NCBI RefSeq assembly: GCF_900115815.1
Contig: NZ_FOXV01000002.1
Span: 310,001 to 374,000 of the forward strand
Direction: 5' to 3'
Length of the DNA: 64,000 nt
Source of the DNA: Roseivivax halotolerans
Lineage (GTDB): Bacteria > Pseudomonadota > Alphaproteobacteria > Rhodobacterales > Rhodobacteraceae
The notes beneath the pieces are model-generated. The model made no database searches and was not told the origin of the DNA. It saw nothing but the letters and a program-made list of their open reading frames with translations. This document shows positions 62,453-64,000 of this stretch, one piece after another; the stretch's first letter is position 1, and every line of letters starts with the position of its first letter. A program made the position numbers and the translations under genes.

Positions 62453-64000
62453 ATGTCGAAAGACCGCAATGTCTTCGAAGCGGTGAAGTCCGGAGCAGCC
62501 TATGAACGGCCGCGCCTGCGGGACGGGCTCTCCGTGTCCGAGACCAGCGGCAAAAGGGGCGCGGGGAAATCCGCCCCGAAATTCGAGCTGACAGACCCTG
62601 CGACCGGCAAGACCTTTTCCCTTTCACCCGAGGAAAAGCACCTCCTCGAGGCTGCGAACGGAGAGCGCCACTTGCGCGAGCTGCATGAAGGGCAGGATGC
62701 CGAGACGAAGCTACCCCCCGAACAGGTGCTCGATTTCTTCCGCCGTTTGCATATCCGTGGCTTCCTAGGCACCGAGGCACCCGCGCCCCAAGCTCCGCGC
62801 AAGCCCGCACGGAAGCCCGCCGCCGCCCGATCGCCCGAACGCAGCCGTGCCAGCGCACCGCACATCAATGCTGCACCGCGAACAGCCAAGGCAAAGGATG
62901 CGGCGAAGCCCGTAGAGACGGATCCGCGTGACGCCAGCCCGGCATCCGCGACGGACGAAGACGCCGGACCCAAGGCCCCGACGGCACCGGCCCGGAAAAA
63001 GCCTGCGCGGATCACGAAGGCGCCGGATGCGGCGGCCCGGACCGCCAAGGTCGAGCCCAAGGCGCGAACCGCGACCGCGAGCAAGACGTCCCTGCGCGCG
63101 GAACCGGCCAAGTCAATGCCTCAGCCCGAGGCAGATCGCTTCGACGCGGTCACCTCCGATCTCCGGGCAGATACGCCGCGCCCTGCGAAAGCGCGCAAGA
63201 GCGAAGACGATGCTCTCGCCGCAATGTTCGGCCCGGACGATTTCGACGACGGCATGTTCGGCCCGATGGGCGGCACAGGCGCACCGGGCGGATTTGGCGG
63301 AATGGGCGGCGGCGGACTGGGCGCAGGTGGCGGGTTTGCCGGTGGGTTCGGCGGAGGTGGCGGGCGCGGCGGCGGCAACGGCGAACGACTGCGCGCCATT
63401 CTGCAGGCGCGCCAAGGCCAAGGCGGCGGCTTCCAACCTCAGCAAGAGGTGCAAGGTCCGGCGCGGCTGACGCTTTTCAATCCAGGCTTTCTTCTGAAGC
63501 TTCTCTACGTCGCGGGCTACCCGCTCAAGTTCCTGTTCTGGGCCATCGTGCCGCTTGTGCTCGTGGCGGGTATGACGGCGGCGCAGAATTGGCCGATCCT
63601 GATCGCCGATCTGAACGTCCTCCTCACCCAATTCTCCAAGATCGGGCTTCTGATCACTGGCGCGCTCTCCGTGAACCTGGTCTCGCGCCTCGCGCAGGGT
63701 GTCGCGATCCGGGCGCATGGCGGACAGGTCAAGGGGCTCGGCCTTATGCTCGTCTTCGGCGTCGTGCCGCGTTTCTTCGTGGATACCGGAAGCGTGCGTG
63801 GACTCGACCGGCGCGGACAGCTTTGGTCCTACGGCGCGCCCCTTCTGGCGCGGCTGTCGGTCTTCTCACTCGGCATGGTCTTCTGGGCGGTGACGCGCGA
63901 AAGCGGCACATGGGCGTCCGAGCTCAGCCTGATTTCGGCTCAGTTCGGGCTTATCATGTTCCTCGTGACCGCGCTGCCCTTCGTCCCCGCAGAGGGTCAG
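62453..64000 (+). CDS. PqqD-like domain plus M50-like membrane protein lacking HExxH (3' end outside window)
   Basis: An open frame of at least 516 codons running off the window. About residues 45-105 form a winged-helix region resembling PqqD: SLSPEEKHLLEAANGERHLR then LPPEQVLDFFRRLHIRGFL. Next comes a lysine/alanine/proline-rich linker (about 108-255), an acidic segment ARKSEDDALAAMFGPDDFDD, and a glycine-rich stretch (about 268-310). Hydrophobic segments follow (YVAGYPLKFLFWAIVPLVLV). The later part, IRAHGGQVKGLGLMLVFGVV then PRFFVDTGSVRGLD, closely resembles the post-HExxH part of site-2 proteases used in peptide maturation. At the HELGH position it reads VSRLAQG. It is probably a non-proteolytic relative. 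Neighbours downstream are unknown. Confidence 0.68.
   Translation, partial: MSKDRNVFEAVKSGAAYERPRLRDGLSVSETSGKRGAGKSAPKFELTDPATGKTFSLSPEEKHLLEAANGERHLRELHEGQDAETKLPPEQVLDFFRRLHIRGFLGTEAPAPQAPRKPARKPAAARSPERSRASAPHINAAPRTAKAKDAAKPVETDPRDASPASATDEDAGPKAPTAPARKKPARITKAPDAAARTAKVEPKARTATASKTSLRAEPAKSMPQPEADRFDAVTSDLRADTPRPAKARKSEDDALAAMFGPDDFDDGMFGPMGGTGAPGGFGGMGGGGLGAGGGFAGGFGGGGGRGGGNGERLRAILQARQGQGGGFQPQQEVQGPARLTLFNPGFLLKLLYVAGYPLKFLFWAIVPLVLVAGMTAAQNWPILIADLNVLLTQFSKIGLLITGALSVNLVSRLAQGVAIRAHGGQVKGLGLMLVFGVVPRFFVDTGSVRGLDRRGQLWSYGAPLLARLSVFSLGMVFWAVTRESGTWASELSLISAQFGLIMFLVTALPFVPAEGQ

Follow-up and report, generated by a model that had tools for sequence, protein, structure and literature searches.

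A putative M50 pseudoprotease fused to RRE-type and HlyD-type domains is linked to PUFA-synthase-like PKS genes

Leader-recognition domains and the branch of M50 proteases that includes the daptide and epipeptide types are associated with ribosomal peptides, and RRE domains are known chiefly as peptide binders; adaptors of the DevB type work with an ABC transporter. A functional precedent for a site-2 protease (S2P)-like protein that escorts rather than cuts is TmcE of TMcin biosynthesis, whose non-catalytic S2P-like membrane part has been proposed to act as an escort from maturation to the exporter (PMC13252029). TmcE spans the membrane twice and works alongside an active S2P, within a RiPP cluster, and neither PqqD nor HlyD is mentioned in the main text of that paper. 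The RRE-Finder paper notes that polyketide BGCs can hold LanB-like proteins with an RRE that is possibly vestigial (PMC7470986), and what we say below of an RRE is tempered for that reason. Type O secondary-lipid synthases, with a product described as uncharacterised and a PPTase of the hShxH type, are listed for Dinoroseobacter, Parvularcula and Gloeobacter in PMC3098273.

Closest in architecture to the protein described here are PqqD-M50-HlyD fusions that carry an HExxH motif (e.g. L025:6508-8724:-; Pfam PqqD 4.9e-6, M50 1.7e-7). These have the same domain order and a homologous M50 half (hhalign probability 98.6, E 7.4e-16) but, unlike the pseudoprotease, keep HELAHG and NPLLKFDG, and they end mostly in an FLxxFxV-like tail whereas the pseudoprotease ends in WSWIP. 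Where their loci were examined they adjoin GAF-HlyD and SecA-like genes, not PKS genes: a GAF-HlyD homologue lies by the fusion gene in nine of nine loci (L025:4533-19901, L027:2-14354, L026 and L116-L121) and a SecA-like gene in eight, the exception being L121. The L025 and L027 loci also contain a giant ORF (over 2500 aa), adhesin-like by eye. Such a set is possibly a secretion system equipped with a SecA of its own; a literature search on it gave nothing.

The domain kinds in our protein are already known; what the literature searched does not show is their union in one chain whose zinc ligands are lost throughout the subfamily and whose gene is linked to PKS/NRPS genes. Among the matches listed from open-access literature, none describes an RRE/PqqD-M50-HlyD fusion or its PKS linkage in its title or the opening of its abstract. 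The pseudopeptidase review PMC11266112 does not mention M50, site-2, S2P, EGY3 or intramembrane, and the accessible text of PMC13291983 mentions neither HlyD nor sulfotransferase.

Domain architecture of the fusion protein

The window, a stretch of 64,000 nucleotides from the marine bacterium Roseivivax halotolerans, ends inside the gene, whose ORF is still open at that point. The complete gene has 991 codons and lies at G000:C31:372453-375428 (+) (L003:453-3428:+), 1428 bases of it past the window end (to G000:C31:375428). The parts inside the window are as follows.

62453..64000, plus strand: 5' part (516 of 991 codons) of a gene read as an RRE - pseudo-M50 - HlyD fusion, from the ORF
62453..62791, plus strand: predicted PqqD/RRE-type winged-helix domain, residues 1-113, from the AF2 model (pLDDT 80) and Foldseek matches to TbiB1, lasso B1 and PqqD
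62792..63463, plus strand: linker of disordered type, first basic and then Gly-rich, residues 114-337, from composition; length and charge vary among relatives
63464..64000, plus strand: putative pseudo-M50 (S2P-type) membrane domain, residues 338-516 in the window and to ~615 in the full protein, from NCBIfam NF041824 and hhalign
63683..63697, plus strand: SRLAQ where HELAH stands (former zinc site), residues 411-415, from alignment with three HExxH relatives
63734..63784, plus strand: GLGLMLVFGVVPRFFVD block, residues 428-444, from an alignment of 20 rows
63986..64000, plus strand: PAEGQ in the position of the third S2P motif (NPxxxxDG), the final bases of the window, from alignment

The AF2 model of residues 1-113, made from 19 rows, is predicted to adopt a three-strand plus three-helix winged PqqD/RRE fold, consistent with the PqqD-like winged helix proposed for the N-terminus in an earlier, sequence-only reading of this DNA. 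The sole Foldseek match under E 0.001 is the RiPP recognition element TbiB1 with its leader peptide (5v1u, E 7.6e-4), followed by lasso B1 (6jx3, E 0.015) and PqqD (5sxy, E 0.022), with TM-scores of 0.53-0.54 by query length; GdmN chains also stand among the matches. Pfam PqqD was weak, with no match reported for the window's protein and, below the curated cut-off, one of 19 relatives at E 0.058. The long basic linker and glycine-rich hinge of the same reading hold for this protein, in which residues 113-250 carry 31 K/R against 16 D/E before a Gly-rich stretch, but the basic charge is no family trait, since residues 1-254 of the R. lentus ORF carry 38 K/R and 46 D/E. A stand-alone 306-aa glycine-rich ORF (L082:10613-11533:-) in the PKS cluster of another genome, G213, resembles this hinge.

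The remainder of the protein is an M50-type part followed by an adaptor. The daptide_HExxH model NF041824 matches at E 8.9e-7 on the part inside the window and at E 5.7e-12 on the whole protein (residues 338-615), and 16 of 19 relatives match it, while nine of the 19 match the YydH/LiaK epipeptide model NF058609; together with the hhalign result this substantiates the M50-type relation first read from the letters. The scores are far under the curated cut-offs (45.5 bits against 300 for NF041824), and, in further difference from the daptide and epipeptide proteases, the zinc site is missing and no RiPP context was found. Pfam M50 gave no match for the window's protein, and no PDB sequence was matched by the M50 profile at E up to 1. 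An HlyD-type adaptor had been anticipated as a neighbour; it is present, not as a separate gene but in the same polypeptide, from residue ~655 onward (TIGR01730, E 8.4e-31). HlyD domains were matched in all 19 relatives and the DevB model in 18, and we see no ABC transporter of the kind that DevB adaptors use. A model of the R. lentus protein has pLDDT 75 and pTM 0.45, the latter making its placement of domains unreliable; its HlyD half resembles MacA (3fpp, E 3.8e-16) and EmrA, and the 50 matches listed of 643 from Foldseek are adaptor proteins. Seven hydrophobic segments are predicted in our protein, which makes an RRE inside and an HlyD part outside possible. We read it as a single, putative inner-membrane protein that begins with an RRE/PqqD-like domain and a flexible linker, goes on to an S2P/M50-type domain without its zinc site and another membrane helix, and ends in a HlyD/MacA/EmrA-type adaptor; its topology would place its two ends on opposite sides of the membrane.

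Loss and retention in the M50 domain

The H-E-x-x-H of three HExxH relatives aligns on S-R-L-A-Q, so that the His-Glu-His set is absent as had been claimed, and the refuting case of a true HExxH further along the chain does not hold: none occurs anywhere in the 991 aa, nor does one of the 21 aligned pseudoprotease proteins contain H[EDQ]xxH. Whether SRxxQ is conserved had been posed as a check, and it is not kept across the family, the first histidine position reading S in 11, T in 4, A in 3, G in 2 and V in 1 of the 21, the glutamate position R in 16 and the second histidine position Q in 11; SRxxQ as a new catalytic motif was rejected on these counts. Other positions are firmer. P and R of the PRF in the GLGLMLVFGVVPRFFVD block are invariant and F nearly so (20 rows). 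At the third motif, PAEGQ has E in place of the D of NPxxxxDG and retains G, with the motif's own P a few residues upstream; P and G are found in 21 of 21 proteins, the acid is D in 14, E in 6 and N in 1, and the leading N is present in only two. L105 and L109 read SSG here. By homology, the membrane domain is a relative of S2P/M50 proteases from which the zinc motif has gone, a predicted pseudoprotease.

Relatives were found by profile search of genome contigs, a single-sequence search having given none. The subfamily comprises 29 genomes, namely our own, G004, G043, 24 loci from the profile search, L105 and L109 (L043 = G005, L050 = G007 and L062 = G160 are counted once, and L085 is taken as L058 on identical coordinates). 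HExxH is present in 0 of the 27 that can be read at the zinc site (the 21 aligned proteins, G043, L045, L061, L064, L105 and L109; L056 and L066 are too short). A search of the phylum with a mixed profile matched 93 of 398 genomes at E 1e-15, and of the best-scoring 30 loci, which were examined, 26 keep HExxH; the four without it (our own, L085, L105 and L109) all end in WSWIP. A tree of 41 M50 domains, made by a quick method and midpoint-rooted, parts 23 pseudoprotease from 18 HExxH rows by one branch with an SH-aLRT of 100. The M50 domain is under purifying selection, with dN/dS of 0.36, 0.35, 0.24, 0.09 and 0.08 (NG86, five pairs, dS above 2 in two of them), similar to the HlyD half at 0.30, 0.30, 0.16, 0.06 and 0.11. 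Taken together, the absence of HExxH from all 27, the single branch and the low dN/dS make the loss of the zinc site look old and maintained, not a matter of decay, and common to proteobacteria and cyanobacteria.

The origin of the HlyD half was considered separately. A derivation from the GAF-HlyD partner of the HExxH fusions was suggested by W-x-W-x-P endings, alike in most, and by 113 versus 56 bits for our own sequence; it was rejected as unproven because the HlyD half groups with eight other adaptors when these are added to the tree (support 91).

Linkage to PKS and NRPS genes

The pseudoprotease is a conserved subfamily linked to PUFA-synthase-like PKS clusters. Such a PKS lies within 25 kb of the pseudoprotease gene in 20 of the 29 genomes: our own, G004, G005, G043, G160, L114, L115 and 13 of 22 further genomes. 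The criterion was that both genes lie on one contig and no more than 25 kb apart. The 22 were searched with the last 1308 residues of the smaller PKS ORF (end of AT, DH, PPT and an esterase-like tail), and only matches to the PKS part of this query were counted. Across alpha- and gammaproteobacteria and cyanobacteria the recurring neighbours are a PKS (once an NRPS) with ACP, sulfotransferases, an AlkP-type phosphodiesterase and a protein of 506 aa. The block is clearest in L114 and L115, where PKS, ACP, AlkP, the hydrolase/506-aa homologue and the pseudoprotease follow one another on one strand with small gaps. Two genomes have contiguous pseudoprotease, TPR and PKS genes on one strand and one has pseudoprotease and PKS in the same way; in L065 an NRPS and an esterase-like ORF lie directly upstream on the same strand (NRPS-esterase-pseudoM50), and in L047 the start of the other PKS protein adjoins the gene. 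Among the remaining genomes, L050 has the pseudoprotease where a contig ends and its PKS on a different contig, and the gene is on contigs of 3-9 kb in L049, L056, L063, L064 and L066, with a PKS match on another contig in L056 and L064 and none in the genome in L049, L063 and L066. Hydrolase and 506-aa-type protein, separate in Roseivivax, share one 862-aa open frame at L114:6236-8821 and L115:5987-8572.

Among genomes of the same bacterial family, one per genus, the gene occurs in 3 of 198 (our own, G043 and G160), a fourth match in G105 covering the HlyD half only. The 506-aa marker appears at E under 1e-100 in the same three genera, with weaker matches in G026 and G213, both genes are found in the same four of nine Roseivivax genomes, and 12 of 15 pseudoprotease genomes tested carry the marker. 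G043 and G160, from other genera, have the pseudoprotease together with PKS, AlkP and 506-aa homologues. G026 has no pseudoprotease and no PKS match in the 60 kb examined, its match being to the esterase-like tail.

The cluster common to our genome, G004 and G005 contains an ACP, the 506-aa protein (no Pfam match; BNR-like by eye), SDRs, hydrolases, the AlkP-type phosphodiesterase, sulfotransferases (the second just below the Pfam cut-off) and two PKS proteins, which Pfam reads as NMO-KS-AT-KR-DH and KS-AT-DH-PPT, with ACP seen by eye only. Our PKS has VTLSH, with T for S, and that of G213 ISLAH at the hShxH motif of Type O PPTases, a tentative likeness drawn from this motif and from the taxa listed in PMC3098273, not from gene order. 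A GlcD-like gene, read from its translation, is the upstream neighbour on the opposite strand, and a terminator-like hairpin (-24.8 kcal/mol, z -2.6) lies between the pseudoprotease gene and the cluster.

A possible role and its rivals

The homology and the lost zinc site are best read as a pseudoprotease scaffold or receptor with a PqqD/RRE-type domain built in, as the sequence-only reading had it. What that reading expected around it was a peptide system, for which we find no support. Among 18 small ORFs of our own cluster none is both conserved and precursor-like: the one clear match, 104 aa long, is encoded in between cluster genes, a further two fall within the GlcD-like gene and the remainder are weak. 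Neither a radical-SAM enzyme nor any other RiPP-modifying enzyme is among the neighbours scanned, and the partners that recur are PKS/NRPS genes. A receptor or scaffold of an undescribed RiPP pathway whose precursor is remote or of an unusual kind is therefore improbable, even though the RRE fold matches leader-binding proteins and the M50 part is closest to the RiPP-maturation proteases of the daptide and YydH/LiaK kinds.

Somewhat more credible, if still unlikely, is a chaperone that helps a protein made by the cluster (the 506-aa protein, the AlkP-type phosphodiesterase or the esterase), rather than a small product, to be secreted or assembled in the membrane, which would make the protein a cousin of the PqqD-M50-HlyD sets with a SecA paralogue. 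The company of GAF-HlyD and SecA-like genes in the HExxH loci and the co-occurrence of the 506-aa gene with the pseudoprotease speak for it; against it, the two pseudoprotease loci searched (L114 and L115) have no SecA-like or GAF-HlyD match, and, in the tree with other adaptors, its HlyD half and that of the HExxH proteins do not come together. We give little credence to a domain that is retooled rather than dead, performing other chemistry such as ester or thioester product release through the PRF Arg together with the third motif's Pro and (D/E)G. R103, P172 and G178 (numbering of the first alignment row) are invariant in 20 rows and D or E stands at the third motif in 20 of 21, but no known catalytic set is recognisable, and the SSG of L105 and L109 lacks the acid. 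Least probable is an iRhom-like regulator, in which the dead M50 part binds substrates of an active S2P or inhibits it. Intramembrane pseudoproteases with such roles are known, the iRhoms (PMC3149277), but our genome and five relatives have no second member of the pseudoprotease's M50 family at E 1e-5 (G317 has one), and the HlyD fusion and PKS linkage would be left unexplained.

Since the genes that keep returning beside the pseudoprotease encode an assembly line rather than a ribosomal peptide pathway, and an export adaptor closes the chain, we propose an RRE-guided, non-proteolytic membrane receptor or escort fused to its own export adaptor and handling a polyketide- or lipid-type product, a reading to which we give an even chance. 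In the cytoplasm the RRE domain would catch either the cargo itself or a partner that is a protein or is bound to a carrier; the fold of the dead protease would hold and escort it in the membrane without cutting; and the HlyD arm may connect to an outer-membrane duct, so that the polyketide- or lipid-type product, or a protein acting on it, would be handed out of the cell. Several observations count against this escort and export model. Sequence models barely detect the RRE domain, a kind best known for peptides. In our own genome the downstream cluster genes are convergent to the pseudoprotease gene, which stands outside their operon. The cluster proteins scanned include no recognisable ABC, RND or MFS pump and no TolC. 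Three of the 15 pseudoprotease genomes tested lack the 506-aa marker, and in L048 the 506-aa gene lies 0.5 kb from the pseudoprotease with the PKS on a different contig. In G213, PKS genes, sulfotransferases and a TPR protein are present while a search at E 1e-5 gives no M50-HlyD relative, which shows that the cluster need not include the pseudoprotease. The wider claim, of a new kind of exporter or escort that unites RRE-type domain, dead S2P membrane receptor and MFP arm in one chain and replaces a dedicated pump in polyketide/lipid and, once, NRPS clusters of proteobacteria and cyanobacteria, is tentative and probably goes too far.

One protein joins an RRE-type domain, a zinc-less protease and an adaptor beside PKS genes in many relatives, which suggests that a dead protease has been reused to help send a polyketide-like product out of the cell. 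A leader-recognition-type domain and a disarmed protease stand here with polyketide and nonribosomal assembly lines; they offer a testable handle on how PUFA-synthase-like clusters move their product to the membrane or outside, and add to the S2P family a putative pseudoenzyme whose loss of zinc ligands is common to two groups, proteobacteria and cyanobacteria.

Two further genes of the Roseivivax cluster lie beyond the window. The PKS ORF G000:C31:388441-394464:- has no stop between its phosphopantetheinyl transferase, a signal-peptide-like segment and a PHB-depolymerase-like domain, and is possibly a natural fusion. The 104-aa protein (G000:C31:384888-385202:+) sits between AlkP and a sulfotransferase and is kept in G004 (56%) and G005 (about 52%).
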